A stretch of 21,825 nucleotides of DNA from a virus. Positions 2,948 to 18,605 of this stretch are shown piece after piece. The number at the start of each line of letters is the position of its first letter. Within the stretch, counting starts at the first letter, position 1. The stretch spans positions 1 through 21,825 of the IMG/VR virus record IMGVR_UViG_3300006166_000210, one strand, 5' to 3'. The notes below the pieces were generated by a model. That model did no database searches. It was not told where the DNA came from and saw only the letters and a program-made list of their open reading frames with translations. Both the position numbers and the translations under genes were made by a program.

Positions 2948-3216
2948 TGTACATTCTTACTTTAGAAGGTCGAGAGGACCAAGGAGCATACTCTGTTACA
3001 AATGAAGAAGGGAGACAAGTTCTCTATCTTTTTGAACAGGAGGATGATTGTGATAGATTTGCTATGATGTTAGAGGAGAGGGAAACAATTCCTGAATTAA
3101 ATGTCTTAGAGGTTGATGACAATCTAATTGTTAAAACTTGCCAACTGCATGGTTATGAATATGCAGTCATTACTAAAAATGATCTTGTGATACCACCTGA
3201 CGATGATAACATTTAA
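2947..3216 (+). CDS. DUF3110-like small protein between gp47 and gp46
   Basis: This encodes 89 acidic residues. The layout fits the DUF3110 family of cyanobacteria and cyanophages: an N-terminal strand (MYILTLEG), a 'GAYSV' segment, a hydrophobic strand ending in LF, an acidic E-x-DD-x-x-RFA helix, then GYEYAVI and a proline-rich end. The molecular role of that family is not known. The gene starts on the stop of gp47 and overlaps gene 46 by 14 nt, so its synthesis is probably coupled to the nuclease subunits. It might modulate the gp46/47 complex, which is speculative. The family name comes from memory of the pattern and would need a profile search. Confidence 0.7.
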   Translation: MYILTLEGREDQGAYSVTNEEGRQVLYLFEQEDDCDRFAMMLEERETIPELNVLEVDDNLIVKTCQLHGYEYAVITKNDLVIPPDDDNI

Positions 3217-4918
3217 ATCTATTAAATATAAAAATTTTCTTAGTACTGGTAATCAATTCACCGAAATTAATTTTAATGGATCTGCCTTCAATACTTTAAT
3301 TGTTGGTAATAATGGTGCGGGTAAATCTACAATATTAGATGCTTTAACATTCTCTTTGTTTGGTAAGTCATATAGGGGTGTTACTAAAAGTCTTCTTGTA
3401 AATTCAGTGAATGAGAAGGATACTATAGTAGAGGTAAATTTTCTTATTGGTACAGTTAAATGGAGAATTGTAAGAGGTATTAAACCTAATAAATTTGAGA
3501 TTTATAAAAATGATGAACAGTTAAATCAAGATTCTCATGCAAATGCACAGCAGACTTGGTTAGAGAATGTAGTTCTTAAGATGAATTACAAGTCATTTAC
3601 ACAGATCGTTATTCTTGGTAGTAGTAACTTTGTTCCTTTTATGCAACTTAGTGCTCCTAATAGGAGAGAAGTTATTGAAGATATTTTAGATATTAAAATT
3701 TTCTCTTCAATGAATAGTATTCTTAAAGAGAAGGTTAAAGGTGTAAGAGAATCTATAAGAGAACTTGAATTTAAAAAGATAACCCTTGAAGAGAAGTATG
3801 AGATGCAGCAATCTTTTATAGATGAGATTGAAGCATTAGGTAAGAAGGATATTAATAACAAGAAGAAGAATATTAAAGAGTTAATCGGTGAGCAAGATAA
3901 GTTGTTAGAAGAAGAAAAACAACTTGAAGAGTTGTTAAGTAATAAGAATAAAGAGGTTGTAGAATACTCTGGATCTAAAGCAAAACTTAAGAAGTTAGGG
4001 AATCTCAAAGGTAAATTAGGTCAGAAAGTAGCGACCATTACTAAAGAGCATAAGTTCTTCACAGGCAATACAGTTTGTCCTACATGTACCCAAGACATTG
4101 AAGAGACCTTCAGGATAAATAAAATTGCGGACTCCCAAAATAAAGCAAAAGAGTTGCAATCAGGTTATAAAGAACTTGAAGAAGCAATTAAAGAGGAAGA
4201 GTTGAGGGAGTCCACATTCATTACTTTATCAGAAGAGGTTACTAATCTAACGCATGGCATTTCTCAAGTTAATACAAAGGTCTCTGGTTACCAAAGACAA
4301 GTCCGAGATCTTGAACAGGAAATTCAAACTATTACCACTCAACTTGAAGATAGAAATATTGAACATGAGAAGCTAACAGATTTTAAACAGCAATTTGAAC
4401 TTGCTTGCGCTAGTGCAGAATCCAAGAAAGATGATATAATAAAATTTGACTTCGTATCAGATCTCCTGAAGGATGGTGGTGTTAAAACCAAAATCATCAG
4501 GAAGTATCTTCCATTGATTAATCAACAAGTCAATAGATACCTCCAGATGATGGAGTTCTATATTAATTTCTCATTGGATGAAGAATTCAATGAGTCTATT
4601 AGATCTCCTATTCAGGAGGATTTTTCTTATGCTTCTTTTTCTGAAGGTGAGAAAATGAGAATTGACTTAGCACTCTTGTTTACTTGGCGAGAAGTTGCTA
4701 AAATAAAAAACTCACTTAACTGTAATTTGATTATCTTTGATGAGACTTTTGATTCTTCCTTAGATGGATTTGGAACTGAAGAATTTTTGAAGATAATTAG
4801 ATACGTTGTTAAGGACGCTAATGTCTTTGTAATCTCTCATAAGGAGGGTTTACAAGATAAGTTCACCAACGTAATTAGATTTGAAAAAATTAAAGGATTC
4901 AGCAGGATGACATCATGA
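3203..4918 (+). CDS. 46: Recombination endonuclease subunit gp46 (SbcC/Rad50-type ATPase)
   Basis: This 571-aa ABC-type ATPase is interrupted by coiled coils. Walker A (GNNGAGKST) is at residues 35-43, a Q-loop-like region follows near 130-150, and long charged helices span about 170-400 with a CPTC zinc hook at 292-295 in their middle. The ABC signature (FSEGEK) is near 479-484 and Walker B (LIIFDE) at 509-514. The protein pairs with gp47, using ATP and hook-mediated dimerisation to regulate DNA end resection. The length is close to T4 gp46. It overlaps the preceding ORF by 14 nt and the following epimerase by 4 nt (ATGA), so it lies inside one long operon. Confidence 0.96.
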   Translation: MITFKSIKYKNFLSTGNQFTEINFNGSAFNTLIVGNNGAGKSTILDALTFSLFGKSYRGVTKSLLVNSVNEKDTIVEVNFLIGTVKWRIVRGIKPNKFEIYKNDEQLNQDSHANAQQTWLENVVLKMNYKSFTQIVILGSSNFVPFMQLSAPNRREVIEDILDIKIFSSMNSILKEKVKGVRESIRELEFKKITLEEKYEMQQSFIDEIEALGKKDINNKKKNIKELIGEQDKLLEEEKQLEELLSNKNKEVVEYSGSKAKLKKLGNLKGKLGQKVATITKEHKFFTGNTVCPTCTQDIEETFRINKIADSQNKAKELQSGYKELEEAIKEEELRESTFITLSEEVTNLTHGISQVNTKVSGYQRQVRDLEQEIQTITTQLEDRNIEHEKLTDFKQQFELACASAESKKDDIIKFDFVSDLLKDGGVKTKIIRKYLPLINQQVNRYLQMMEFYINFSLDEEFNESIRSPIQEDFSYASFSEGEKMRIDLALLFTWREVAKIKNSLNCNLIIFDETFDSSLDGFGTEEFLKIIRYVVKDANVFVISHKEGLQDKFTNVIRFEKIKGFSRMTS

Positions 4919-5823
4919 CAAAATCATTAGTAACTGGAGGAGCAGGATTCATAGGATCAAACCTCGTAGATAAACTTCTTGAGATGGGACACCAGGTAGT
5001 CTGTATAGACAATGAATACTCGGATGCCCATGATCATTTTTATTGGAACGATAAAGCAGATAACCACAAGTTTGATATTTGTGATTATGAGAATACTCGC
5101 CCGTTATATGACGGTGTAGATTATGTGTTCCATATTGCAGCAGAAGCAAGAATTCAACCAGCAATAGAGAACCCGATTAGAGCAGTTCAAATAAATTCTG
5201 TAGGAACCTGTACAGTGCTTCAGTGTGCTAGAGAGGCAGGTGTTAAGAAGGTGATGTATTCATCCACTTCATCTGCTTATGGTATGAATAAAGTACCAAA
5301 TTCAGAATGTCAATCTGATGATTGTTTGAATCCTTATTCAGTATCTAAGGTGAATGGTGAGAAGTTATGTACGATGTATACAGACCTCTTTGGTCTTAAG
5401 ACTGTTATTTTTAGATACTTTAATGTATATGGAGAACGTCAACCACTAAGAGGACAGTATGCTCCTGTTATTGGTATCTTCCTACGTCAACTGGCAGCAG
5501 GTGAGAAGTTAACTATTGTGGGTGATGGTGAGCAACGTAGAGACTTTACTCATGTATCAGATGTAGTACAGGCAAATTATCTTGCTGCTATTACTGATGT
5601 TGATGATGAGTATTATGGATGTATCTACAATGTAGGTAATGGTAAGAATTATTCTGTCAATGAAGTTGCAAGAATGATTACTTGTTTAGATAGTAGATTA
5701 ACATATATACCTGAGAGACCTGGTGAAGCAAGAGAGACACTTGCACAGAATACTCTTCTGAGACTTATCTTCGGGTGGAGACAAACTGTAGAACTGGAGG
5801 ATTGGATTAGTGGACAAAGATGA
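4915..5823 (+). CDS. NAD-dependent nucleotide-sugar epimerase/dehydratase (extended SDR)
   Basis: This 302-aa extended short-chain dehydrogenase has a glycine-rich NAD site TGGAGFIGS at 7-15, D32 where an adenine-ribose acidic residue is expected, and an HIAAEA segment near 73-78. The catalytic set is T118 (in SSTSSAYG), Y141 and K145 (YxxxK). The C-terminal sugar-nucleotide region has RYFNVYGERQ, an RDFTHVSD stretch and YNVGNG, and ends with RPGEAR and a GW motif. The closest families are UDP-glucose/UDP-GlcNAc 4-epimerases, and the exact substrate cannot be read from the sequence. It would act in the cytoplasm to supply a modified sugar for host surface glycans or phage glycosylation. No glycosyltransferase is next to it in this window. 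It follows gene 46 with an ATGA overlap and is an accessory insertion relative to the T4 order. Confidence 0.9.
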   Translation: MTKSLVTGGAGFIGSNLVDKLLEMGHQVVCIDNEYSDAHDHFYWNDKADNHKFDICDYENTRPLYDGVDYVFHIAAEARIQPAIENPIRAVQINSVGTCTVLQCAREAGVKKVMYSSTSSAYGMNKVPNSECQSDDCLNPYSVSKVNGEKLCTMYTDLFGLKTVIFRYFNVYGERQPLRGQYAPVIGIFLRQLAAGEKLTIVGDGEQRRDFTHVSDVVQANYLAAITDVDDEYYGCIYNVGNGKNYSVNEVARMITCLDSRLTYIPERPGEARETLAQNTLLRLIFGWRQTVELEDWISGQR

Positions 5824-6034
5824 TTCCAATTGGCGGCAGGAGATGAAGGCATATACCACTAGCAGGTATGAGTTAGATCTACTTGATAATGGTCCTAAGA
5901 GTCTTGCTCAATCTTGGATGATGGGTGCATTGCACAACAAATGGAAGAAGATCTATGGTATAGTAGATCCTGAACCCCCTGATTGTTCATCCAATCTTAA
6001 GGACTCACTTAAAAAGTTCGATGACATTACCTAA
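5810..6034 (+). CDS. Small hypothetical protein, probable GTG start (74 aa)
   Basis: GTG at 5810 is preceded by GGAGG (5796-5800) with 9 nt spacing. That decides the start over the in-frame ATG at 5843, which has AGGAG immediately against it and no proper spacing. The frame overlaps the epimerase by 14 nt and the next ORF by another 14 nt. The protein is rich in Trp, Lys and Asp, with a predicted helical centre (SLAQSWMMGALHNKWKKIY) and a proline-rich acidic end (DPEPPD). There is no membrane segment or known motif and the function is unknown. The good ribosome site and tiling between neighbours support a real gene. Confidence 0.7.
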   Translation: MDKDDSNWRQEMKAYTTSRYELDLLDNGPKSLAQSWMMGALHNKWKKIYGIVDPEPPDCSSNLKDSLKKFDDIT

Positions 6035-6242
6035 CTGGCAACACAATTCGGGCAAAGAACCGAAGCGAACGCTTAAACCTCAAGCGTTACGCAGTGCAAG
6101 AGAACGACGTAGACAGTTAAAAAAGCGTCTACTTAATACCTCTTCCCCACGGAAGGGGTTTTATAATGTGTACATACAAGAGGAAGCACATGACAGTCAA
6201 TCTAGAAATCAAAGGTCAGTTAGCAAAATTGCTTGCTACTGA
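6021..6242 (+). CDS. Small basic hypothetical protein overlapping a terminator and the next gene
   Basis: This encodes 73 aa starting within the last 14 nt of the previous ORF. The first ~40 residues are strongly basic (RSARERRRQLKKR), which suggests nucleic-acid binding, and the last ~30 look like random coil. The ORF runs through a strong hairpin terminator (6138-6162) and 53 nt into the VWA gene. Transcripts that stop at the terminator would therefore lack a stop codon for this frame. The basic N-terminal part may be the genuine conserved portion, with the tail being read-through coding. I do not recognise it and rate it as a probable but uncertain gene. Confidence 0.5.
   Translation: MTLPNWQHNSGKEPKRTLKPQALRSARERRRQLKKRLLNTSSPRKGFYNVYIQEEAHDSQSRNQRSVSKIACY
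6068..6132 (+). repeat. Two inverted repeats just upstream of the terminator
   Basis: AACGCTT (6068-6074) pairs with AAGCGTT (6082-6088) over a 7-nt loop. GTAGAC (6109-6114) pairs with GTCTAC (6127-6132) over a 12-nt loop. With the terminator hairpin at 6138-6159 they form three successive stems in about 90 nt. The stretch is richer in CG dinucleotides than its surroundings. It lies within the basic 73-aa ORF, so the pairing may partly reflect coding, but it could also give a structured transcript 3' end. Confidence 0.45.
6138..6162 (+). terminator. Rho-independent terminator
   Basis: ACCTCTTCC (6138-6146) pairs with GGAAGGGGT (6151-6159): nine pairs including one T-G, with loop CCAC, followed by TTT and AT-rich DNA. 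It would end the 55-47-46-epimerase transcript. The T-run merges directly into the TATAAT of the next promoter. Confidence 0.75.
6162..6167 (+). promoter_or_regulatory. -10-only promoter candidate for the VWA gene
   Basis: TATAAT lies 28 nt before the ATG at 6190, in the same position as other TATAAT boxes here (27-30 nt before ATG at 1252, 8602 and 16221). No -35 match lies 16-18 bp upstream, where the terminator stem sits. This could be a phage-specific class needing an activator or gp55-type sigma. It also argues that the ATG at 6166, which lies inside the box, is not the start. Confidence 0.45.
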
Positions 6243-8418
6243 AGATCTGATTATAGAGAATAAGCAAGTAGAGACTGCAATGTTTAACGTTGATACTCGT
6301 GTTTTAACTCTACCAATGTGGGATGCAGATGAGAAGGTATATGATATGTTGGTTGCTCATGAAGTAGGACATGCACTATTCACACCTAATAGAGATCCAA
6401 GAAAAGGTCTTCCTCAGACATTCCTTAATGTTACAGAAGATGCTCGTATTGAGAAGTTGATGAAGCGTAAGTATGAAGGTCTTCCTAAGACATTCTATGG
6501 TGGTTATGATCAATTATATAAGGATGACTTCTTTGATCTTGCTGGTGTTGACATTGATAATATGAATCTTGCGGATAGAATTAATCTCCACTTTAAGATT
6601 GGTCCTTTTATGGGTATCAAATTTAATGAGGAAGAGCAAAAGATTGTTGATGCAACTGCTAGTGCAGAGACTTTTGAAGATGCAGAAGACGCAGCAGAGA
6701 TGTTGTACAATTACTGTAAGGAAGAACTTGAAGAGCAAAAAGCACAACAGAAGAAGGAAGAAGAAGAATTTGATGCAATGATGAAGATGCAAGGAGAGGG
6801 TATGGGTGAAGATGATTTGAATTCTGATGTTTTTGAATCATATAATGAAGATCAGATAGATAGTGATGATGACACTGATGGAGAAGGTGAAGGAAGTCCA
6901 AAATCTGGTCGTCCTGATTTGGGAGAAGATGAGACAGATTATGATGATATTAGTGATGATATTACTGATAGTGCAACAGGAAATGAAGCAAGTGGTCCTT
7001 CTGAGAATGATTCAGAACCTCAAGTTAGAACTGATCAAGCATTAGCAAAAGCGATTAGAGATTTAGTTAATGATGAAGCACAACCAAATCAATATTTGGA
7101 ATTACCTAATTTAAATTTAGATACAGTCATTAACCCAAACACCACTGTTCATACTCATATAGAAGAGTACTGGAGACAATATGAACAGGATAAGATAGCG
7201 TGTAATGAAGACTTCCGTTATCTATTATCAGATTATGATACTGTTGATGAGGCATATCATAAGTACAGAAAGGAAGCACAAAAAGAAGTAAATTATCTTG
7301 TTAAAGAGTTTGAGTGTAAGAAGGCAGCAGACTCATATGCAAGAGCAACAGTATCTAAGACTGGAGTTCTAGACTGCTCTAAACTTCATACCTATAAGTA
7401 CAATGAAGATCTATTCAAGAAGGTAACAACTCTTGCTGATGGTAAGAATCATGGTTTAGTATTCATTCTTGATTGGTCAGGTTCAATGTCAAACTGCCTA
7501 ATGGATACCCTTAAGCAGTTATATAATCTTATATGGTTCTGTAGAAAGGTTGCTATTCCGTTTAGAGTATATGCTTTTACTTATGAGTTTAATCGTACTA
7601 TGGAAGGTAATGGATATAATCTTTTACAACACTATGAACCAAAGGAAGGATTAATTGCTGTAGATGAAAGATTCTCTTTAATGGAATTCTTTACTAGTGA
7701 ATCAAACAGTAGAGAGTCTGAAAAACAGATGATGAATATATGGAAGATTGCATATGGAATGAAGCACTATTGCTCATATCCTATTCCACCAAGATTAAAT
7801 TTATCTGGTACTCCTTTAAATGAGACTATAGTTGCTTTGGATAAAATTCTTCCATTGTTTAAAAAGCAGACTGGTGTTCAAAAGGTTCAATGTGTAATCC
7901 TTACTGATGGTGAAGCGAATCATCTTCCTAGACATAAGTTAGTAGAGCGTCGTTGGGAGGACACACCATTTTTAGGATGCCAATCCATCAATCCAGTACG
8001 TGACCATCTACGCAACCGTAAGAATGGTAGAACATATAGGATCAAGCATTCATGGAATGAGTTTACAGGTACTCTTATATCATATGTAAAAGATAATAAT
8101 CCAGGTATCAACTTCATTGGTATTAGACTTCTTGCTCCCCGTGATGCTGGATACTTTGTTGACCGTTATTGTGGATGGAATAGTCCACAAGCAGTTAAAG
8201 CAAAGCAGCAATGGAAGAAGACTAAGAGTTTCTCTATAGAACTTGATGGATACAATAAGTATTTTGGTTTATCATCTGCTACTCTCGCAAGTGATGATGA
8301 CTTTGAAGTTCAGGAAAATGCAACTAAGGTTCAAATCAAAAGAGCATTCATTAAATCTTTGAAAACTAAGAAACTAAATAAGAAGGTCTTAGGGGAATTC
8401 GTGGAGTTAATCGCATAA
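6190..8418 (+). CDS. VWA-domain protein with N-terminal HEVGH metallopeptidase motif (CobT-like)
   Basis: This encodes 742 aa from ATG 6190, chosen because AGAGGAAG lies just upstream and a promoter -10 covers the alternative ATG at 6166. The N-terminal ~100 residues carry HEVGH at 57-61 followed by NVTEDARIE at 80-88, where E83 or E88 is a plausible third zinc ligand as in gluzincin-type folds. A low-complexity acidic linker spans about 175-280. The C-terminal von Willebrand A domain has the MIDAS residues DWSGS at 428-432, T541 in SGTP, and D573 in LTDGE. The VWA domain plus acidic linker resembles CobT, the partner of the AAA+ protein CobS in cobaltochelatase. The next enzyme gene (8602) is CobS/MoxR-like, so the two probably form a chelatase or metal/protein-remodelling complex. 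Whether the HExxH part cleaves protein or only binds metal is unknown. Confidence 0.88.
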   Translation: MTVNLEIKGQLAKLLATEDLIIENKQVETAMFNVDTRVLTLPMWDADEKVYDMLVAHEVGHALFTPNRDPRKGLPQTFLNVTEDARIEKLMKRKYEGLPKTFYGGYDQLYKDDFFDLAGVDIDNMNLADRINLHFKIGPFMGIKFNEEEQKIVDATASAETFEDAEDAAEMLYNYCKEELEEQKAQQKKEEEEFDAMMKMQGEGMGEDDLNSDVFESYNEDQIDSDDDTDGEGEGSPKSGRPDLGEDETDYDDISDDITDSATGNEASGPSENDSEPQVRTDQALAKAIRDLVNDEAQPNQYLELPNLNLDTVINPNTTVHTHIEEYWRQYEQDKIACNEDFRYLLSDYDTVDEAYHKYRKEAQKEVNYLVKEFECKKAADSYARATVSKTGVLDCSKLHTYKYNEDLFKKVTTLADGKNHGLVFILDWSGSMSNCLMDTLKQLYNLIWFCRKVAIPFRVYAFTYEFNRTMEGNGYNLLQHYEPKEGLIAVDERFSLMEFFTSESNSRESEKQMMNIWKIAYGMKHYCSYPIPPRLNLSGTPLNETIVALDKILPLFKKQTGVQKVQCVILTDGEANHLPRHKLVERRWEDTPFLGCQSINPVRDHLRNRKNGRTYRIKHSWNEFTGTLISYVKDNNPGINFIGIRLLAPRDAGYFVDRYCGWNSPQAVKAKQQWKKTKSFSIELDGYNKYFGLSSATLASDDDFEVQENATKVQIKRAFIKSLKTKKLNKKVLGEFVELIA

Positions 8419-8567
8419 TGTTAACAAGAGAAGAATGGGATATGATTGCTAGGTGTGTGCATAGTCACCCACCTAGTATTACTACTGAACAGGCAAATAA
8501 CTTAATTCAGAAACTATCCGAGACAGTTGAAGAACTGGAACATCTAAAAGAGAATAGTTTAGTATGA
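8418..8567 (+). CDS. Small hypothetical protein (49 aa) between the VWA and CobS-like genes
   Basis: The start shares its A with the stop of the VWA gene (TAATG) and the frame ends 35 nt before the CobS-like gene. It reads as a probable helical protein starting MLTREEWDMI, with a CVHSHPP segment and a C-terminal charged helix (SETVEELEHLKE). There is no recognised family. Exact abutment suggests translational coupling to the VWA gene, so it could be an accessory subunit of that complex, which is inference from position only. Confidence 0.6.
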   Translation: MLTREEWDMIARCVHSHPPSITTEQANNLIQKLSETVEELEHLKENSLV

Positions 8568-8572
8568 GGGTC

Positions 8573-8578
8573 TATAAT
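8573..8578 (+). promoter_or_regulatory. -10-only promoter candidate for the CobS-like gene
   Basis: TATAAT lies 29 nt before ATG 8602 with no recognisable -35 box at the normal spacing. The predicted leader is about 17 nt, A/C-rich and without a Shine-Dalgarno sequence. Confidence 0.4.
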
Positions 8579-8601
8579 GTGTATAACAAATAAACAACAT
8601 T

Positions 8602-9747
8602 ATGCCTTTTGAAATTAAAATGACTGAAGACCAAATCAAAGATGGGTTAAAGAATGCATACGGCACAGAATTTACTGCTGCTGATATTCGTGCCTTCTGT
8701 GCCATGAATGATATTGGTTATCAGACAGTCACTAAGAAACTACTTAAGCATAAAGTAGAGAAGGGTAAATGGAATTTGGAAGTTACTACACAGGCAGTTG
8801 AGAATATAGAGCGTTCATTTAAAGCACCTGCTGCTCCTATTACTGCTCCTGCTGTAGTTCAAAATCTTATCCCAGAGAAAGATCCAACTTTTGTTAAGTT
8901 TGGAAACTTCAATGATGTTAAGAAGATTATTCAATCCAAGTTGTTTTATCCAACATTCATTACTGGTCTATCTGGTAATGGTAAAACATTTAGCGTCGAA
9001 CAGGCGTGTGCTCAATTAGGAAGGGAGTTAATTCGTGTCAACATCACAGTCGAAACGGACGAAGATGATCTCATTGGTGGTTTCCGTCTTATTAATGGCA
9101 GCACTGTTTGGCACAACGGTCCTGTTATCGAAGCACTCGAAAGAGGGGCAGTATTGCTTTTGGATGAAGTTGATCTTGCCTCTAACAAGATCTTGTGTCT
9201 CCAGTCCGTCTTAGAAGGTAAAGGTGTATTCCTTAAGAAGATTGGTAAGTTTGTAAATCCTGCTAAAGGATTTAATGTTCTTGCTACTGCTAATACAAAA
9301 GGTAAGGGATCTGATGATGGTAGATTCATAGGAACTAATGTTCTTAATGAAGCATTCTTAGAGAGATTTTGTGTTACCTTTGAGCAACAGTATCCAACAC
9401 CTCAAACTGAGTACAAGATTCTTGTAGCAAAGGCACTAGAGGTTGGTCTATCTAAAGGTGATCATGACCTTAATCAGAATTCTGACTTCTGTCAGCGTCT
9501 TGTAGACTGGGCAGACATTATCCGTAAGACCTTCTATGATGGTGGTATAGATGAAGTTATTAGTACTCGTCGCTTGACACATATCATCCGTGCGTTTAGT
9601 ATCTTCAATAACAAGGAGAAGGCAGTTAATATATGCCTCAATAGGTTTGATGATGAGACTAAGCAGTCCTTCTTAGAACTTTATGATAAAGTTGATCCTG
9701 ACTTTGCACCAGCAGAAGATGGACAAGAAGATGAATCCTTGGTATAA
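8602..9747 (+). CDS. cobS: CobS/MoxR-type AAA+ ATPase
   Basis: This encodes 381 aa. An N-terminal helical region (1-90, partly Ala/Pro-rich near 75-90) precedes an AAA+ core. Walker A (GLSGNGKT) is at 122-129, Walker B (LLLDEVD) at 185-191, sensor 1 (ATAN) at 228-231, and a likely arginine finger R255 is in AFLERF. The MoxR branch is indicated by the DLIGGF and WHNGP segments (near 156-175). T4-like cyanophages are known to carry a cobS homologue annotated as part of cobaltochelatase, the aerobic cobalt-insertion step of B12 synthesis. The upstream VWA protein is a natural partner. No CobN-like subunit is present in the window, so the phage pair would have to use host subunits or act on a different target. 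The leader lacks a clear Shine-Dalgarno. Confidence 0.88.
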   Translation: MPFEIKMTEDQIKDGLKNAYGTEFTAADIRAFCAMNDIGYQTVTKKLLKHKVEKGKWNLEVTTQAVENIERSFKAPAAPITAPAVVQNLIPEKDPTFVKFGNFNDVKKIIQSKLFYPTFITGLSGNGKTFSVEQACAQLGRELIRVNITVETDEDDLIGGFRLINGSTVWHNGPVIEALERGAVLLLDEVDLASNKILCLQSVLEGKGVFLKKIGKFVNPAKGFNVLATANTKGKGSDDGRFIGTNVLNEAFLERFCVTFEQQYPTPQTEYKILVAKALEVGLSKGDHDLNQNSDFCQRLVDWADIIRKTFYDGGIDEVISTRRLTHIIRAFSIFNNKEKAVNICLNRFDDETKQSFLELYDKVDPDFAPAEDGQEDESLV

Positions 9748-9762
9748 TATTAGGAGAAAAGA

Positions 9763-10458
9763 ATGTCTATTATGAGTGATGAGCAGAACAGAGTGACCCC
9801 TCAGGAATCTGATGAGTATGATCCACCAAAGGCAAAAGATGCCGATAGGATCACCTCATTAGAAAGTGAGGACTATGATCTGATCAATCCTGAACCAAAG
9901 CACTCTAAGTATTGGTATGATTGGGATAGAAATGGACTAACTGAAAATCCATTTCAAGGAACCAATCATTATGCTAGTGCAGTTGACTTCCAAGTAGAGA
10001 ACATGGTTGGTGCTGCAGAAACTATTAACATTGATACTAGTGGTTTTGATCTTTATGGAAAAGATGTTGTTACCTTTGGTGCAGATACTACAGCACAAGT
10101 AGCTCCAGATACTATAACATTTGGTGATTCAAAACCAGAACCAGATCTGTCGTTCAAGTCACATAAGTATCAAGAAGATAAAGGTATTGCAGATCTTAAA
10201 GATTATGTCTCTTCCACTTATAAGGGACATTATACAAATAGCAATTCTGATACCCAAACTCTTGATCTTATTCACTCTGTGGGTGATGCAGAATCGTTCT
10301 GTCGCTCTAATGCAATTAAGTATTTGAGTCGCTATGATAAGAAGGGATCTGCAAAACAGGATATACTAAAAGCAATGCATTATTGCTTACTCCTTTATTA
10401 CTTCAGTGGTAACACTAAAGAACCTGATTACACTAACACTCGTTATGAAACTTTCTGA
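9763..10458 (+). CDS. Acidic protein with C-terminal DUF3310-like domain
   Basis: This encodes 231 aa with AGGAG at 9752-9756, six nt before the ATG. An in-frame ATG three codons later is possible. The first ~140 residues are acidic and low in predicted order, with repeated DT/TFG segments (near 86-121). The C-terminal ~60 residues match the DUF3310 pattern: an HY pair near 156-157, LDLIHSVGD, then SNAIKYLSRYDKKG (182-195) and QDILKAMHYC. DUF3310 occurs in many phage proteins, including the T7 gp1.7 nucleotide kinase, but kinase activity cannot be claimed here. The gene overlaps the clamp gene by 14 nt. A TATAAT at 9743 overlaps the preceding stop codon and may be coincidental. Confidence 0.8.
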   Translation: MSIMSDEQNRVTPQESDEYDPPKAKDADRITSLESEDYDLINPEPKHSKYWYDWDRNGLTENPFQGTNHYASAVDFQVENMVGAAETINIDTSGFDLYGKDVVTFGADTTAQVAPDTITFGDSKPEPDLSFKSHKYQEDKGIADLKDYVSSTYKGHYTNSNSDTQTLDLIHSVGDAESFCRSNAIKYLSRYDKKGSAKQDILKAMHYCLLLYYFSGNTKEPDYTNTRYETF

Positions 10459-11110
10459 TAAAACTGTCAATCTACTTAAGAATTTTAGCAACATAAATCA
10501 ATCTATTCTTTTTAAAGAGGGTAGTAAACTTCGCACTATGAGTGTGATGAAGAACATTCTTGCAGAAGCAGAAGTTAATGAAAAATTCCCAAAAGATTTT
10601 GGGATATATGATTTGAATCAATTCCTTAATGGTATGGGATTGCATCAGAATCCAGATTTGGATTTTACTAATGATAATCATGTGGTTATCAAAGAAGGTA
10701 GAATGAGATCCAAATACTTCTTTGCTGATCCTAGTGTAATAGTCACACCTCCAGATAAGAATTTGGATCTTCCTAGTGAAGATGTATCATTTGAATTGAA
10801 TACGCAACAGTTAGATCGTTTACTCAAAGCAGCAGCAATTTATCAGTTACCAGACTTAGCAGTTGTTGGTGAGAATGGTGTAGTAAGGATTGTTGTTAGA
10901 GATAAGAAGAATGATACTTCTAATGATTTTGCTATTACAGTTGGCGAGACAAAGGATGTATTCAACTTCAACTTCAAAGTAGAGAATATTAAGATTATTC
11001 CTGGTACTTATGATGTAGTTGTATCTCAGAAGTTATTGTCTAGGTTTAAGTGCAAGGATTATGATCTTACATACTTCATTGCATTAGAACCTGATTCTTC
11101 CTTTGGGTAA
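10445..11110 (+). CDS. 45: Sliding clamp gp45
   Basis: This 221-aa protein resembles T4 gp45 (228 aa), the trimeric ring that tethers polymerase to DNA and activates late transcription. The start MKLSDKTVNLLKNFSNIN is very like the T4 start, so ATG 10445 is preferred over the longer frame from 10406. Other matches are IYDLNQFL, an ADPSVIVTPP segment near 98-107 and a final ALEPDS. Its 14-nt overlap with the preceding gene suggests coupled translation. The stop shares bases with the following methyltransferase start (TAATG). RegA represses this gene in T4, so control by the regA gene downstream is plausible. Confidence 0.95.
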   Translation: MKLSDKTVNLLKNFSNINQSILFKEGSKLRTMSVMKNILAEAEVNEKFPKDFGIYDLNQFLNGMGLHQNPDLDFTNDNHVVIKEGRMRSKYFFADPSVIVTPPDKNLDLPSEDVSFELNTQQLDRLLKAAAIYQLPDLAVVGENGVVRIVVRDKKNDTSNDFAITVGETKDVFNFNFKVENIKIIPGTYDVVVSQKLLSRFKCKDYDLTYFIALEPDSSFG

Positions 11111-12039
11111 TGAGAAATTCTATCCTCTATGGGGATTGTAGAGAGACCTTAAAAGAGTTTGCTTCTCATACTGATAAGGCGAGGATGTGTGTAACGTCCC
11201 CGCCTTATTATGGTCTTAGGGACTATGGTGGTGAAGAGAATCAAATAGGTCAGGAACAGTCTCCAGAAGACTTTATAAAAAATTTAGTTGAAGTGTTTGG
11301 TTTGGTAAGAGATTGCCTAACTGATGATGGTACTCTATGGGTAAACATAGGTGATAGTTATTACAACTATAGACCTGGTAAAGGTCAGTCACAACCTAAA
11401 CAAACTGTATCTAGAACTAAACAAGATCTACCTGAGAAGTGTGCTAAACGTGCTAATAAGTTAGAAGGATTAAAGGAGAAGGATCTAATTGGTATCCCTT
11501 GGATGCTTGCATTTGCACTACGTGCGGATGGATGGTATTTGAGGCAGGATATAATATGGCATAAACCAAATCCAATGCCTGAGAGTGTGAAGGATAGGTG
11601 TACCAAATCACATGAATACATTTTTCTATTAAGTAAGAACAAGAGGTATTATTATGATAATGAAGCAATTAAAGAACCTGCTAAGGATTGGGGAACACGG
11701 GACAGGACAAACGGTAAGTATCATAATAAAGGGACAGGATTGTCACCTCACACTGGTCTTAGTAAATCATACGCTAAAAAGAATAAGCGAAGTGTATGGA
11801 GGGTAACTAACAAACCATATAAGGGAGCACACTTTGCAGTATATCCACCTGATCTTATTGAACCATGTATAAAGGCAGGTAGTCAAAGAGGGGATATTAT
11901 ATTAGATCCGTTTATGGGATCTGGGACAACTGCTAGGGTTGCAAGGTCTCTAAATAGAGATTACATTGGATGTGAACTTCACGAGGATTATCGTGACTTG
12001 ATTGAGATACCTTCTTTAGATGGATTAGTTGAGAAATGA
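11110..12039 (+). CDS. Site-specific DNA methyltransferase (beta-class, TSPPY motif)
   Basis: This encodes 309 aa. Catalytic motif IV (TSPPY) is at 29-33 and the AdoMet-binding motif (DPFMGSGTT) is near the C-terminus at 266-274, the order expected of beta-class amino-methyltransferases. TSPPY is common in N4-cytosine enzymes, though N6-adenine activity cannot be excluded. The central variable region (about 85-240), including an IIWHKPNPMPES segment, is the likely target-recognition part. No matching restriction gene adjoins it, so it may be an orphan that protects phage DNA from host restriction. It is inserted between clamp gene 45 and clamp-loader gene 44, which are adjacent in T4. It starts on the gp45 stop and overlaps a tiny membrane ORF by 4 nt. 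Confidence 0.92.
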   Translation: MRNSILYGDCRETLKEFASHTDKARMCVTSPPYYGLRDYGGEENQIGQEQSPEDFIKNLVEVFGLVRDCLTDDGTLWVNIGDSYYNYRPGKGQSQPKQTVSRTKQDLPEKCAKRANKLEGLKEKDLIGIPWMLAFALRADGWYLRQDIIWHKPNPMPESVKDRCTKSHEYIFLLSKNKRYYYDNEAIKEPAKDWGTRDRTNGKYHNKGTGLSPHTGLSKSYAKKNKRSVWRVTNKPYKGAHFAVYPPDLIEPCIKAGSQRGDIILDPFMGSGTTARVARSLNRDYIGCELHEDYRDLIEIPSLDGLVEK

Positions 12040-12349: not shown

Positions 12350-12584
12350 TTCCTATCCTAGGAACATCGTATTTGAAAGAGAATATGAAGATTGGACAGA
12401 TGCTCAAGATAAAGCTGTCCAATTGCTTGAAGATGATGTAGAATGGGTTCAGATCCTTATAGGGGATACTGATGATTGGGGCATGCTCCAAGAGTTAAAT
12501 CTAGAGAGAGGTATTAAAGATGATACCTTTAGTACTCATACTCTAGCACCATATTATGTGAGATTGAGAAATTATGAGGGATGA
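12324..12584 (+). CDS. Small acidic hypothetical protein (86 aa)
   Basis: This is an acidic protein with a strand-like start (MYKVCGQ), a central Asp/Glu-rich helix (DWTDAQDKAVQLLEDD), then a VQILIGD strand and DDWG. It overlaps the membrane ORF by 26 nt, the longest overlap in this group, and gp44 by 11 nt. No Shine-Dalgarno is evident, consistent with translation coupled to its neighbour. No known domain was recognised. It lies just before the clamp loader, as small ORFs do throughout this region. Confidence 0.65.
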   Translation: MYKVCGQDDSYPRNIVFEREYEDWTDAQDKAVQLLEDDVEWVQILIGDTDDWGMLQELNLERGIKDDTFSTHTLAPYYVRLRNYEG

Positions 12585-13518
12585 ATTCCTTTGGGTTGAG
12601 AAGTATCGACCCAAGACAATTGAAGAATGTATTTTACCTGAGAGTATCAAGAAAACTTTTCTTGAGTTCTTGGCGGCAGGAGAAGTGCCAAACTTACTTC
12701 TTGCTGGTCCTGCAGGGTGTGGTAAGACAACAGTTGCTAAAGCACTGTGTAACGAATTAGGAGTAGACTCTTATGTCATTAACGGATCGGATGAAGGCAG
12801 GTTTCTTGACACTGTTAGGAATAACGCCAAGAACTTCGCAGCAACAGTATCTTTATCTTCTGAGGCAAAGCATAAGGTCATCATCATCGACGAGGCAGAC
12901 AATACCACTGCCGACGTACAACTCCTTCTTAGAGCGTCTATTGAGGAGTTCTCAAACAACTGCAGATTTATCTTTACCTGCAACTACAAAAACAAGATCA
13001 TTGAGCCCCTCCATTCGAGATGCTCAGTCATCGAGTTCTCAATCGCAGGAAAACAAAAACCAGCAATTGCTGGACAATTCTTCGCAAGACTTAATACCAT
13101 CTTGGAACAAGAACGGGTTGAGTCTGATAAGAAAGTCCTCGCAGAACTTATCAACAAACACTTCCCAGACTGGAGAAGAGTCCTCAACGAGTGTCAACGA
13201 TACTCAGTAAGTGGAAAGATAGATTCTGCAATTCTTGCAACCTTTGGGGATGTAAAGACTGAGGATCTAGTAAAACAATTAAAGGGTAAGAAGTTTACGG
13301 AAGTCCGTAAATGGGTAGTTCAGAATCTGGACAATGATCCTGCTCTTATTCTTAGAAGAATCTACGATTGCATGTATGATTCTTTGGAACCTAGCAGCAT
13401 ACCTGCCGCAGTTCTGATCATTGCAAAATACCAATATCAGATAGCGTTTGTTGCAGATCAAGAGATTAATCTCATGGCGGCATTAACTGAACTAATGTGT
13501 GAATGTAACTTCAAATGA
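12574..13518 (+). CDS. 44: Clamp loader large subunit gp44 (AAA+ ATPase)
   Basis: This 314-aa protein is close to T4 gp44 in length. The start LWVEKYRPKTIEE is the usual clamp-loader N-terminus. Walker A (GPAGCGKTT) is at 45-53, Walker B (IIIDEAD) at 103-109, sensor 1 near 133-137 (FTCNY), and the SRC arginine-finger motif at 148-150. With gp62 it forms a 4:1 complex that opens gp45 and loads it at primer-template junctions. Here gp62 is separated from gp44 by about 1.85 kb of inserted genes, whereas they are adjacent in T4. The region 12850-13200 is noticeably richer in C than neighbouring genes. Confidence 0.96.
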   Translation: MRDEFLWVEKYRPKTIEECILPESIKKTFLEFLAAGEVPNLLLAGPAGCGKTTVAKALCNELGVDSYVINGSDEGRFLDTVRNNAKNFAATVSLSSEAKHKVIIIDEADNTTADVQLLLRASIEEFSNNCRFIFTCNYKNKIIEPLHSRCSVIEFSIAGKQKPAIAGQFFARLNTILEQERVESDKKVLAELINKHFPDWRRVLNECQRYSVSGKIDSAILATFGDVKTEDLVKQLKGKKFTEVRKWVVQNLDNDPALILRRIYDCMYDSLEPSSIPAAVLIIAKYQYQIAFVADQEINLMAALTELMCECNFK

Positions 13519-13841: not shown

Positions 13842-14362
13842 TGATTGACATTAAACTTTGTGATTTGAATAGTTTTTTTGGTTGTGTTGATGCAACTAAC
13901 ACAACAGAATTAAAAACTAATGCCTTTCGTCCTCTTAGGACTTATCTACAGGAGAAGTCTTTTGAGAAGCATTCTGGTGGTCAACTGACTTATGTTGGTA
14001 ACTATGCAGATGGTCAAGACTTCGTTGACAATGATGGAGTCCCTTATGAGATGAAAGGTTCTTTGGGATTATTTAATAAGAATGGATCATGCAAACAGGT
14101 TATCCTAAAAAATAATATGCCTGGTCGTAGCAAACAGAACTTAGAGAAGACCTTTGAGTACATGCTTTTAGTTGATACTAAGAACATGAGTCTTGCTGTT
14201 ACTACTTGGGATGTTGTTGAGAGTAGATCCAAACTTGATGGTGCAGGTGCAACATTTAAACTTCAAGCAGGTGACTTTACTATGCTTGCTGAGAATGTTA
14301 AACCAACTGCAAAGAACATTACTGCTAATGAACTTCTAGAATCTCTAGAGAGCATTCTATGA
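13841..14362 (+). CDS. Candidate PD-(D/E)XK endonuclease, PvuII-like active-site segment
   Basis: This encodes 173 aa. The segment at 57-72 reads DGQDFVDNDGVPYEMK, giving D60, E70 and K72 in the spacing D-x9-E-x-K. From memory PvuII has GNDAVDNAGQEYELK with D58, E68 and K70 at identical spacing and several shared neighbours (VDN, G, YE-K). After the motif come a strand-like VILKNN and a second strand pair (FEYMLLVD and LAVTTWDVV), as expected for this fold. The length is close to PvuII (157 aa). The start shares a base with the previous stop and the stop overlaps the Dam-type methylase start (ATGA). That adjacency suggests a restriction-modification pair, or a phage nuclease whose sites in phage DNA are protected by methylation. 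Specificity cannot be read. Overall similarity outside the motif is low. Confidence 0.6.
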   Translation: MIDIKLCDLNSFFGCVDATNTTELKTNAFRPLRTYLQEKSFEKHSGGQLTYVGNYADGQDFVDNDGVPYEMKGSLGLFNKNGSCKQVILKNNMPGRSKQNLEKTFEYMLLVDTKNMSLAVTTWDVVESRSKLDGAGATFKLQAGDFTMLAENVKPTAKNITANELLESLESIL

Positions 14363-15222
14363 AGAAGTCCCTGAAGTCTCTTAAAACACCTCTCAGGTAT
14401 CCTGGTGGTAAGTCTCGTGCTTGTATAAAGATGGAGAAGTATCTACCTAATTTGGCAACCTATGAGCAATATAGAGAACCCTTTATTGGGGGTGGGTCTT
14501 TTGCTATACATGTTACTAAGTTGTATGATGGTTTACCTATTTGGGTAAATGATTTATATAAACCACTGTTTACATTTTGGCAGCAACTTCAGGGATCTGG
14601 AAAGGAAATGTCTGAGAGATTGTTAGAGATTAAAGAGGAATATAATATACCAGATAAGGCAAAAGAATTTTTTAAAACAGCGAAGGAGATTATTAGTGAT
14701 AAAGAACAATCCGACTTTGATCGTGCCGTTGCTTTTTATGTTGTTAACAAGTGCTCTTTTTCTGGTCTCACTGAGTCCTCGTCCTTCTCACCTCAGGCAA
14801 GTACCTCCAACTTTACTGTTAGAGGAATTGAAAAACTTCCAGACTACCAAGAGTTAATAACCAATTGGGTTATAACAAATTATTCTTATGAGGATGTTTT
14901 AAAGAATGGTATTGATTCCTTTATATACTTAGATCCTCCTTATGATATTAAGGATAATCTATATGGTAAGAAGGGTGGAATGCATAAGACATTTGATCAT
15001 GATAAATTTGCAGAAGATTGTGAGGCATGTGAATCTCACCAATTAGTATCATATAATAATTCTCAATTAGTAAAGGATAGATTTGCTGGTTGGGATGCAG
15101 CGGAATATGAACTAACATATACCATGAGATCTACTGGAGATTACATGGGTGATCAAAGTACTCGTAAGGAGTTACTTTTACTAAATTATGAAAGGAGCAG
15201 TTTAATGGAGTTCTTCAAATGA
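14359..15222 (+). CDS. DNA adenine methylase, Dam/D12 class
   Basis: This is a 287-aa alpha-class N6-adenine methyltransferase. The N-terminal LRYPGGKSR is at 12-20, AdoMet-site EPFIGGGS at 40-47, an NDLYK motif near 64-68, and catalytic DPPY at 192-195. The insert between about 75 and 180 is the helical target-recognition part. Dam itself methylates GATC, and GATC occurs often in this window, but the target of this enzyme is not shown by the sequence. It overlaps the nuclease candidate by 4 nt upstream and the 52-aa ORF by 4 nt downstream. It could protect phage DNA from that nuclease or from host restriction, or mark it for regulation. Confidence 0.92.
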   Translation: MKKSLKSLKTPLRYPGGKSRACIKMEKYLPNLATYEQYREPFIGGGSFAIHVTKLYDGLPIWVNDLYKPLFTFWQQLQGSGKEMSERLLEIKEEYNIPDKAKEFFKTAKEIISDKEQSDFDRAVAFYVVNKCSFSGLTESSSFSPQASTSNFTVRGIEKLPDYQELITNWVITNYSYEDVLKNGIDSFIYLDPPYDIKDNLYGKKGGMHKTFDHDKFAEDCEACESHQLVSYNNSQLVKDRFAGWDAAEYELTYTMRSTGDYMGDQSTRKELLLLNYERSSLMEFFK

Positions 15223-16220: not shown

Positions 16221-18605
16221 ATGTCACAATTGTATAATGGTATCAGTGAACGTCTTTTTTATACTTTAGGTAAAAGACCTGATACCGCATCACCACATGA
16301 TTTCTATATGGCATTATGCTATGCTGTGAGAGATCAGATGATGACTTATTGGTTGGATAGTAAACCAAAGTCAAAGAAGGAAGTCGCATATCTATCTGCA
16401 GAATTTTTAATTGGACCTCAACTTAATAGGAATCTTATTAACTTAGGAATTCTTAAAGAGGCAGAAGAAGCATTAAAGGAATATGGTTATTGTTTAGATA
16501 AAGTTGTTGCACAAGCAGAGGAACCAGGACTTGGCAATGGTGGTCTTGGTCGTCTGGCTGCATGTTATATGGAGTCTCTATCGACTCTAAAGGTTCCTGC
16601 TACTGGATATGGTATAAGGTATAAGTATGGTATCTTTAAACAGATTATAAGGGACAATCAGCAAATTGAGATAACCGATAATTGGTTGCATGGAGATTGG
16701 CCATGGGAGTTATGTCAACCAGAAGAATCTGTTTTAGTTGGATTTGGTGGTAGAGTAGAGAATTATATTTCAGATAGAGAGCATTATAGAGTACGTTGGG
16801 TTCCTGATGAACAGGTAGTAGCAGTTCCCTATGATGTATTGCAATTAGGGTATAGGGTTAATTCTTGTAATAGATTAAGATTATGGAGAGCGGATGCTAC
16901 TGAGACATTTGATTTCTATGCATTTAATATTGGAGATTATCTTGGTTCAGTAGAACAGAGTGTTACTTCTGAGACCATCTCTAAGGTACTGTATCCTAAT
17001 GATGGTACAGATCAGGGTAAGACATTGCGATTGAAGCAACAGTTCTTCTTTGTCAGTGCATCTCTTCAAGATATGCTTAGGAGTTTAGAGAAGCGTAATA
17101 TTCCTTTAACTGAATTCCCAGATTATTATGCAGTTCAACTAAATGATACTCATCCTTCTATTGCAGTAGCAGAGTTGATGAGATTGCTTGTAGATGAGCG
17201 TCATATGGAGTGGGAAGATGCATGGGAGATAACACATAAGACTATTGCATATACAAACCATACTCTTCTTCCAGAGGCATTAGAGAAGTGGAGTCTTAAA
17301 TTATTTAAGAATCTTCTTCCACGTCATATGGAAATAATCTATGAGATTAATCGTAGATTCCTAAATTTGGTTCGTCTTCAGTATCCTGGAAATGAATCAA
17401 TCTTAAGTAAGTTATCTATCATTGATGAGACAGGTAATAAGTTTGTTCGTATGGCACACTTAGCAACCGTAGGATCACATCATGTTAATGGTGTTGCTGA
17501 GTTGCATTCTGACTTAGTTAAATCTCAATTGATGCCAGAGTTTAATGACTTATGGCCTCATAAGTTTACTAATGTAACTAATGGTGTTACTCCTCGTAGA
17601 TGGATAGCATCTTGTAATCCTTCCCTATCAGAGGTTCTTACTGAATATTGTGGTCCAGATTGGATTACTGATATGGGACAACTTAAAAAGTTAGAAGAGG
17701 AAAAATCTTACGAACTATTGGAGAAGTTGGGAGAAGCAAAACTTCTCGGTAAACATCATCTTGCTTGTTACATCTTTAACAATCTAGGAATATCTGTAGA
17801 TCCTTCTAGTATGTTTGATGTTCATGTTAAGAGGATACATGAATATAAGCGTCAGCACTTACTTGCACTTCAAGTTATCGCCCAGTATCTTCGTATCAAA
17901 AACGGAAAGGACTTCGTTCCTCGCACAGTAATATTTGGTGGCAAAGCAGCACCTGGATATTATATGGCAAAGTTGATTGTTCATTTTATTAATTCTATTG
18001 CTGAGACAATTAATAGTGATCCTGATATGGATGGTAAGTTACGTGTAGTATTCTTACCAAACTATAGTGTTAAGTTAGGAGAACTTGTATATCCTGCTGC
18101 TGATTTATCTGAACAAATTTCTACTGCTGGTAAGGAAGCATCGGGTACAGGTAATATGAAGTTCCAAATGAATGGTGCTTTAACTATTGGTACATTAGAT
18201 GGTGCTAACGTAGAGATACGTAATCTAGTTGGTAAAGAGAACTTCTTCTTATTTGGTAAGACAGAATCTGAGATAGGAGAATTGTGGAGGAACAATTATG
18301 ATCCTAAGCACTACATGAGTGCTGAACTTTGGGAAGTGATTAACCTTATTAAAGGTGGGCATTTTAGTGGGGGTGATAAGGATACCTTTAGACCACTCTT
18401 AGATAACTTATTGAATAATGATCCATTCTGTGTCTTTGCTGATTTTGATGATTATCTTAATGCTCAAGATGCAGTGAATGAGGTATGGAAGAATAGAGAT
18501 GAGTGGAATAATATGTCTCTTTTAAATATTGCACGATCAGGATTCTTCTCTTCTGATAGATCTATTAGGGATTACTGCGACAAGATATGGGGGATATCTG
18601 TTTGA
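16221..18605 (+). CDS. glgP: Glycogen phosphorylase (alpha-glucan phosphorylase)
   Basis: This 794-aa enzyme is slightly shorter than bacterial GlgP (about 800-840). The family blocks are present in order: VAYLSAEFLIG near 55-65, EPGLGNGGLGRLAACYMES at 101-119, GYGIRYKYGIFKQ near 129-141, VQLNDTHPSIAVAE near the middle, TNHTLLPEALE, then FTNVTNGVTPRRW, and VKRIHEYKRQ. The cofactor site EASGTGNMK has its PLP lysine at K647, followed by GTLDGANVEI. It cleaves alpha-1,4 glucans with phosphate to release glucose-1-phosphate. No truncation or lost catalytic block is evident, so it should be active. A long N-terminal regulatory extension of the animal type is absent. In a cyanobacterial host it would mobilise stored glycogen to fuel the pentose phosphate route during infection. 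Base and codon use look like the neighbouring phage genes. It overlaps the oxygenase ORF by up to 19 nt. Confidence 0.96.
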   Translation: MSQLYNGISERLFYTLGKRPDTASPHDFYMALCYAVRDQMMTYWLDSKPKSKKEVAYLSAEFLIGPQLNRNLINLGILKEAEEALKEYGYCLDKVVAQAEEPGLGNGGLGRLAACYMESLSTLKVPATGYGIRYKYGIFKQIIRDNQQIEITDNWLHGDWPWELCQPEESVLVGFGGRVENYISDREHYRVRWVPDEQVVAVPYDVLQLGYRVNSCNRLRLWRADATETFDFYAFNIGDYLGSVEQSVTSETISKVLYPNDGTDQGKTLRLKQQFFFVSASLQDMLRSLEKRNIPLTEFPDYYAVQLNDTHPSIAVAELMRLLVDERHMEWEDAWEITHKTIAYTNHTLLPEALEKWSLKLFKNLLPRHMEIIYEINRRFLNLVRLQYPGNESILSKLSIIDETGNKFVRMAHLATVGSHHVNGVAELHSDLVKSQLMPEFNDLWPHKFTNVTNGVTPRRWIASCNPSLSEVLTEYCGPDWITDMGQLKKLEEEKSYELLEKLGEAKLLGKHHLACYIFNNLGISVDPSSMFDVHVKRIHEYKRQHLLALQVIAQYLRIKNGKDFVPRTVIFGGKAAPGYYMAKLIVHFINSIAETINSDPDMDGKLRVVFLPNYSVKLGELVYPAADLSEQISTAGKEASGTGNMKFQMNGALTIGTLDGANVEIRNLVGKENFFLFGKTESEIGELWRNNYDPKHYMSAELWEVINLIKGGHFSGGDKDTFRPLLDNLLNNDPFCVFADFDDYLNAQDAVNEVWKNRDEWNNMSLLNIARSGFFSSDRSIRDYCDKIWGISV

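Follow-up and report, generated by a model that had tools for sequence, protein, structure and literature searches.

The stretch of DNA analysed here (the window) comprises positions 1 to 21,825 of IMG/VR virus record IMGVR_UViG_3300006166_000210 and has a gene order of the T4-like cyanophage type: gp55 (the late sigma factor), gp47, gp46, a pair of genes that is the subject of this study, gp45, gp44, gp62, regA and hsp20. At the DNA level, its closest matches among the collected phages are Prochlorococcus phage P-SSM2 and marine single-cell virus contigs, all of which align to a small part of the window. The first gene of the pair (6190–8418; phrog_459, E 1.6e-263; T4-GC 146) encodes a 742-amino acid protein, here called the zincin-VWA protein, whose homologues in P-SSM2, S-PM2 and HTVC008M carry the annotation ‘peptidase’. 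The second (8602–9747; phrog_249, E 4.2e-134; T4-GC 150) encodes a 381-amino acid MoxR/CobS-like AAA+ ATPase. Both genes, their motifs and the four replication and recombination genes given coordinates below lie on the plus strand. Together, the two proteins are a putative MoxR-VWA machine with a gluzincin-like N-terminal domain.

A conserved HExxH motif in the VWA protein

Homologues back the ATG at 6190 as the start of the zincin-VWA protein; the longest open reading frame begins at 6166. Residues ~1–199 (6190–6786) form the gluzincin-like domain, which was assigned from an AlphaFold2 model and its zincin structural neighbours and contains HEVGH (residues 57–61, 6358–6372) and NVTEDARIE (residues 80–88, 6427–6453). 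An acidic linker follows (residues 200–280, 6787–7029), with 29 Asp/Glu and 3 Lys/Arg among its 81 residues, and then the VWA region (residues 301–742, 7090–8415). The metal-ion-dependent adhesion site (MIDAS) of this region is complete, consisting of DWSGS (residues 428–432, 7471–7485), T541 (7810–7812) and D573 (7906–7908); D428, S430, G431 and S432 are invariant in two alignments, and T541 and D573 are likewise invariant in the alignments. An initial annotation had placed HEVGH, NVTEDARIE and a complete MIDAS in one protein, and the translation confirms every residue.

An HExxH motif was present in 48 of 2000 shuffles of the zincin-VWA protein, so that the claim is carried by conservation and not by the motif alone. 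HExxH and the pattern N-x2-ED-x-R-x-[ED] were both kept in 100 of 100 T4-like homologues from IMG/VR and GTDB contigs, with E at the last position in 97 and D in 3; these are 101 loci minus one (L108), which this method did not match and which carries HEAGH. H57, E58, H61, N80, E83, D84, R86 and E88 did not vary across the window and 79 of the 80 IMG/VR loci (the locus left out of that alignment, L053, is included in the 100-row count), and N80, E83, D84 and R86 were invariant across 64 alignment rows. Identities among the T4-like homologues are as low as ~28 percent.

Either E83 or E88 had been suggested as the third metal ligand. In the pelagiphages Mosig and HTVC008M and in Ochrobactrum phage OC, H57, E58, H61 and E83 are kept and the residue at E88 is D; we therefore rejected E88 and regard E83 as the likelier ligand. 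E83 is invariant and lies 22 residues past H61, on the next helix of the AlphaFold2 model.

Pseudoalteromonas phage XG4 has the two domains split between neighbouring genes in swapped order, VWA first and HEVSH domain second; both genes match phrog_459 and precede the ATPase gene, implying that the zincin is a separable module. The XG4 record is marked unverified; these features lie at 5869–8111 and 8483–9406 of it. In the XG4 ATPase reading frame the phrog_249 match starts at position 174 and no Walker A is visible, perhaps reflecting a frameshift.

A predicted zincin-like fold of the N-terminal domain

Direct searches with the zincin-VWA protein returned little: Pfam and NCBIfam scans gave nothing useful, phmmer against the PDB gave no chain at E up to 10, and a profile search against the PDB found unrelated chains only (best E 0.17). 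We modelled residues 1–205 with AlphaFold2 using 64 sequences, which yielded a predicted local distance difference test score (pLDDT) of 91.1 and a predicted template modelling score of 0.84. The model has three strands, then a helix (48–64) bearing HEVGH and a second helix (76–94) bearing NVTEDARIE, and thus E83. When compared with the PDB using VIA-align, its neighbours were predominantly HExxH zincins, including ArdC (Z 7.3, 118 residues, 4.1 Å), selecase (Z 7.0, 95 residues, 3.2 Å), ZMPSTE24 (Z 6.7, 129 residues, 3.8 Å), abylysin (Z 6.5, 92 residues, 3.0 Å) and Wss1 (Z 6.4, 67 residues, 2.4 Å), with IrrE/PprI, BlaR1 and aminopeptidases among others further down. The minigluzincins selecase and abylysin, as well as Wss1 and IrrE/PprI, have a glutamate helix after the HExxH helix. 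The same order is described for ArdC of plasmid R388, a zincin (PMC7213743). In this the phage domain resembles its best neighbours; it differs from them in having R at position 86, and the matched chains, judged by title, are without a VWA or AAA+ partner. Its conservation, its predicted fold and its structural neighbours all make the N-terminal domain look zincin-like, in line with the fused protease-like domain suggested at the outset.

Three observations weigh against this assignment. Foldseek found no PDB match to the domain at E < 0.001 (best 0.059), and Z values of about 7 are middling by VIA-align's own scale note, so that it takes fold, motif and conservation in combination to support the zincin reading. 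In addition, the gluzincin glutamate-helix motif given in the ArdC paper, (E,H)xx(A,F,T,S,G) (PMC7213743), is not matched by E83-D-A-R86; T4-like rows have R at position 86, where other mobile elements mostly carry R, F, M or W.

A VWA region and an ATPase of the MoxR-VWA type

The model of the whole protein has a pLDDT of 77.3, falling below 50 at residues 202–273, and on this basis the acidic linker between the N-terminal domain and the VWA region is probably disordered. The VWA half is of the MoxR-partner type by structural match: in VIA-align comparisons over model range 301–742 it matched the Midasin MIDAS domain (Z 16.8, 216 residues, root-mean-square deviation 3.2 Å) and the NorD VWA domain (Z 15.5, 246 residues, 4.7 Å). 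The top nine rows of this list were all Midasin or NorD, with other VWA proteins starting at 12.6 and one more NorD at 12.0.

The MoxR-type ATPase reported downstream is indeed present, with a match to Pfam AAA_5 (E 3.6e-17). It carries GLSGNGKT (residues 122–129, 8965–8988), LLLDEVD (residues 185–191, 9154–9174) and STRR at 321, which we take to be Walker A, Walker B and a sensor-2-like motif. Its best PDB sequence matches were Midasin and CobS chains. The make-up of a MoxR-VWA system, an AAA+ ATPase with Walker motifs adjoining a MIDAS-VWA protein, is thus present.

Midasin (Rea1/Mdn1), the top structural match of the VWA region and the top sequence match of the ATPase, has a MIDAS-type VWA domain driven by AAA+ modules, within a single giant eukaryotic chain that acts in ribosome assembly; we know of no zincin domain in it. 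DUF2201/COG3864 proteins are said to join a putative metallopeptidase and a VWA-like domain near MoxR genes. The zincin-VWA protein had no Pfam match at E up to 1 to this type, whose accessions we take to be PF13203 and PF09967. The conflict-system paper PMC7159879 notes that vWA proteins are in rare cases fused to metallopeptidase domains serving as effectors, and mentions a zincin-like metallopeptidase gene in coupled peptide-processing systems; neither statement describes the zincin-VWA/MoxR pair. Closer in layout is NorQ-NorD, a MoxR AAA+/VWA system for FeB insertion into cNOR, in which a single protein likewise comprises an N-terminal domain, a disordered linker and a VWA domain and is partnered by a MoxR ATPase; stretching of the linker by ATP-driven VWA rotation has been proposed for it (PMC13036017). 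It differs in that the phage N-terminal domain is gluzincin-like, while the NorQD papers are silent on a metal site in the NorD N-terminal domain: the words ‘HExxH’, ‘zinc’ and ‘peptidase’ do not occur in PMC9976466, nor ‘zinc’ and ‘histidine’ in PMC13036017.

Loss of the motif in other mobile elements

HExxH was kept in 11 of the 14 relatives examined outside the T4-like group: RHEph10, CRP-810, ICP2, Woes, SSU5, GodonK, an Anaerobiospirillum contig, the SSU5-like plasmids of E. coli and Klebsiella, an Enterobacter plasmid and an IncC plasmid. For more distant MoxR ATPases of Staphylococcus, Lactobacillus, Acinetobacter and Mycobacterium phages, those partner genes that were read had no HExxH and were not counted as the pair.

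Set against an intact active site are the remaining three of the 14, in which both histidines are lost and the pair is kept: Pseudomonas phage hairong (SEIAK), Stenotrophomonas phage BUCTxx99 (REVST) and an Acinetobacter plasmid (QEVAK). The ATPase tree (see below) does not establish that these three losses are independent. ICP2, too, has V at the equivalent of E83, with HExxH kept. Variation of HExxH among homologues had been named in advance as telling against the proposal, and the outcome is divided: the motif is invariant in the T4-like branch and lost in these three elements and, as described below, in all 28 usable true CobT sequences. Since three relatives lack both histidines, catalysis is not essential everywhere. 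For ArdC, the protease and metal site is dispensable for conjugation, its known function (PMC7213743); by analogy, catalysis may be dispensable in some lineages of the phage pair.

A metal-binding, non-proteolytic adaptor, in which the zincin fold serves for docking or metal sensing and the target is remodelled by mechanical action of the pair, as by NorQD or Midasin, would account for these losses, has the ArdC precedent (PMC7213743) and fits the position of NorD and Midasin as top VWA matches. This is hard to square with both histidines, E58 and E83 being invariant in 100 T4-like homologues down to ~28 percent identity; invariance that includes the general base E58 suggests that the active site is itself under selection, and we regard the adaptor as rather unlikely.

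Two further arrangements were seen. Gordonia phage GodonK encodes, at 6528–8795 and near a MoxR ATPase gene, a 755-amino acid protein with HETGH and DVSGS, which by these motifs is a putative, very distant version of the zincin-VWA/MoxR layout. On IncC plasmid pSD_174 (L158, 1331–9324) and in locus L109 (4848–9320), genes for a MoxR ATPase, a DUF3150 protein and an HExxH-VWA protein stand in one array, in which DUF3150 looks like a third component; the array also holds ssb, bet/recT and lambda-type exonuclease genes.

Replication and recombination genes around the pair

Upstream of the pair, the window carries gp47 (SbcD/Mre11-like; 1913–2947, phrog_100, E 2.4e-114) and gp46 (SbcC/Rad50-like; 3203–4918, Pfam AAA_23/SMC_N), and downstream of it the gp45 sliding clamp (10454–11110, phrog_223, E 3.6e-86) and the gp44 clamp loader (12574–13518, phrog_168, E 1.8e-132). 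This setting recurs among the IMG/VR loci: gp46 lay upstream in all 37 with at least 3 kb of upstream sequence, cobS downstream in 49 of 50 with room for it (the exception being L038), and gp45 or gp44 downstream in all 23 with at least 5.5 kb on that side. The corresponding counts for GTDB contigs were 12/15 (gp46), 11/14 (cobS) and 8/10 (gp45 or gp44).

Replication or recombination genes were also found within 16 of 19 opened mobile-element stretches bearing the pair. These 19 were hand-picked rather than random, and leave aside a Sinorhizobium plasmid locus with a NorQ/NorD pair (L111) and an IncC stretch that does not include its VWA gene (L112); the 16 include six T4-like phages, XG4 among them, which are kin. 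The order is ligase, pair, DnaE in SSU5; ligase, pair, sigma factor, DnaE in RHEph10; primase, ligase, pair, DnaE in hairong; helicase, primase, pair, DnaE in BUCTxx99; and pair, primase, polymerase in ICP2. On plasmids the neighbours are ssb and bet or recT with an exonuclease gene or, in others including the Klebsiella plasmid (L113), a DNA polymerase gene. CRP-810, Woes and GodonK count against the pattern, having no clear replication neighbours; an endonuclease V gene lies near the pair in CRP-810.

Whereas the initial annotation had looked to maturation of a metalloprotein or to a host complex as the target, gene order points instead to phage DNA replication and recombination. It bears in the same way on a host-directed protease-remodeller, acting in takeover or counter-defence and co-expressed with replication genes by happenstance. 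The antirestriction protein ArdC is among the structural neighbours, and relatives are found in phages and also on plasmids, both conjugative and other, as such a role would allow; replication and recombination neighbours kept in very different genomes would, however, be unusual for host-specific counter-defence, and no defence target was identified. We judge this explanation improbable.

Relation to the cobaltochelatase

CobT works with CobN, and the CobS-CobT gene pair shares its architecture with the phage pair. In contrast to a true CobT used as a control, which passed TIGR01651 (786.1 against a cut-off of 759.05), the zincin-VWA protein had no match at E up to 1 to TIGR01651, PF06213 or PF11775, and the ATPase scored 70.8 bits with the NCBIfam CobS model TIGR01650, for which the cut-off is 558.55. 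Relatives also stayed below the TIGR01651 cut-off: 69 for the E. coli plasmid protein (L114), 84 for SSU5, 179 for CRP-810 and no score for OC. PF06213 did match the E. coli (4.1e-26) and Klebsiella (L113; 5.6e-14) plasmid proteins, both of which have HEVAH.

Such plasmid proteins connect the two families. Using hhalign, the T4-like N-terminal domain aligned with mobile-element proteins such as these at 98.3 percent (E 1.5e-14), and the value for these proteins against true CobT was 96.0 percent (E 4.5e-9). The direct comparison of the T4-like domain with true CobT was weak (9.5 percent, against at most 0.8 in 20 column-shuffled controls), and the homology claim thus rests on the intermediate mobile elements. 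Through this indirect chain of profiles, the N-terminal domain is a predicted distant homologue of that of CobT.

HExxH was kept in none of the 28 usable true CobT sequences (of 30 aligned rows, L131 and L143 were excluded as misframed; in another frame both likewise lack HExxH). In most of them H57 is replaced by Ala or Ser, E58 by a hydrophobic residue and H61 by Arg or Lys, with E83 kept in 27 of 28; the chelatase CobT is thus a related protein that lacks the metal site. In an ATPase tree, eight true CobS rows clustered together (99/99) and HExxH-bearing systems fell in several other places. The tree is unrooted and includes eight of 28 true CobS rows (one misframed Nonlabens CobS row was excluded); because of its very long branches, it was used only for these two statements.

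CobN (PF02514) was absent from all 10 complete related records, six phages and four plasmids; the window, a 21.8-kb fragment, does not allow its absence there to be judged, and a host CobN could serve. Since the PF02514 control search gives a match in Synechococcus elongatus, a cyanobacterial host could be a source of CobN. Plasmids of E. coli and Klebsiella, which are close to Escherichia and Klebsiella phages, carry related pairs; to our knowledge, these hosts lack CobN. The pair also occurs in CRP-810, with hosts that we take to be CHUG roseobacters and the B12 auxotrophs named in PMC12478193. In the control genome of Caulobacter vibrioides, PF06213 (CobT) matched and PF02514 (CobN) did not, and this bacterium apparently has a chelatase-type CobT without CobN.

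CobS is listed as one of 25 genes that make up the T4-like cyanophage core (PMC3037559), and phage cobS is read as a B12 gene in PMC8651126, PMC11288001 and PMC11705849, although the CRP-810 paper calls its function uncertain (PMC11288001). Our results make the ‘B12 gene’ label weakly supported for the pair and, counter to Liu et al., who deem the cyanophage name ‘peptidase’ mistaken (PMC8651126), support reading the T4-like branch as peptidase-like. The proposal that host CobN is captured by phage CobST, with a rise in cobalamin output (Liu et al. 2021, PMC8651126), has in its favour the distant N-terminal homology, the CobS chains among the best ATPase matches and the CobN of cyanobacteria; given the scores below the family cut-offs, a metal site kept here and missing in true CobT, the missing CobN in related records and hosts, and neighbours that are mostly replication genes, we consider it very doubtful.

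Other genes in the window

A gene for an NAD-dependent epimerase (PF01370, E 6.2e-57) lies at 4915–5823, between gp46 and the zincin-VWA gene; this spot holds different genes in P-SSM2, Mosig and HTVC008M and is empty in S-PM2. The clamp-loader gene is flanked by two DNA methylase genes (11110–12039 and 14359–15222) from different Pfam families, N6_N4_Mtase and MethyltransfD12. Between regA and a 2OG-Fe(II) oxygenase gene, 16221–18605 encodes a full-length glycogen/carbohydrate phosphorylase (PF00343, 1030 bits), matched by 18 of 50,697 phage records at E <= 1e-10; the best match, S-SCSM2R (72 percent), is the sole one of the 18 named as a cyanobacterial phage. A promoter-like sequence, TATAATGTGTA, common to the regions upstream of both genes of the pair was set aside, as its 6 matches against 5.26 expected are within chance.

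Discussion

On balance, the pair is probably a MoxR-VWA remodelling machine whose VWA subunit has an intact gluzincin-type metal site, and not a cobaltochelatase; its make-up, and its failure to score as CobS or CobT, agree with the doubt that the initial annotation had raised about the chelatase role. The alternatives weighed above partly overlap with this reading, and the likelihoods given to them need not sum to one. We infer that the two proteins form a complex, bind metal and cleave protein, and that their substrate lies in DNA metabolism, which would make the pair a metalloprotease-type remodeller of DNA-metabolism proteins. In this model, a hexamer of the AAA+ ATPase (8602–9747) would hold the VWA domain and use ATP to turn it or pull on it, as in NorQD. 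The MIDAS would grip a protein target, and the N-terminal domain, on its long acidic linker, would provide a second contact point, with Zn2+ held by H57, H61 and E83 and with E58 as the general base. The most likely action would be to cleave or open a protein of phage DNA replication or recombination.

Wss1/SPRTN with Cdc48 are DNA-linked metalloprotease-unfoldase systems. A more specific and, in our estimation, improbable version of the remodeller would make the pair their phage and plasmid counterpart, clearing proteins that obstruct phage DNA ends or forks beside gp46/gp47 and the clamp, with CobT derived later through loss of the zinc site.

The architecture class is already known, and the new points are a MoxR-VWA variant that bears a metal site and its relation to CobT. 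We found no description of HExxH in a phage CobT or ‘peptidase’ homologue among the open-access PMC papers listed by our searches, as far as their texts were available; preprints and most subscription journals lie outside that scope. The feature itself is real: it is strongly conserved, under-described and found mostly in DNA-metabolism modules of phages and plasmids. If an intact zincin-VWA partner does act within the replication module, B12 readings of cyanophage cobS would need to be revisited, and the role of that gene would become testable with point mutants. The MoxR-VWA class would then gain members of a metalloprotease type, with a hint at the origin of the chelatase CobT.

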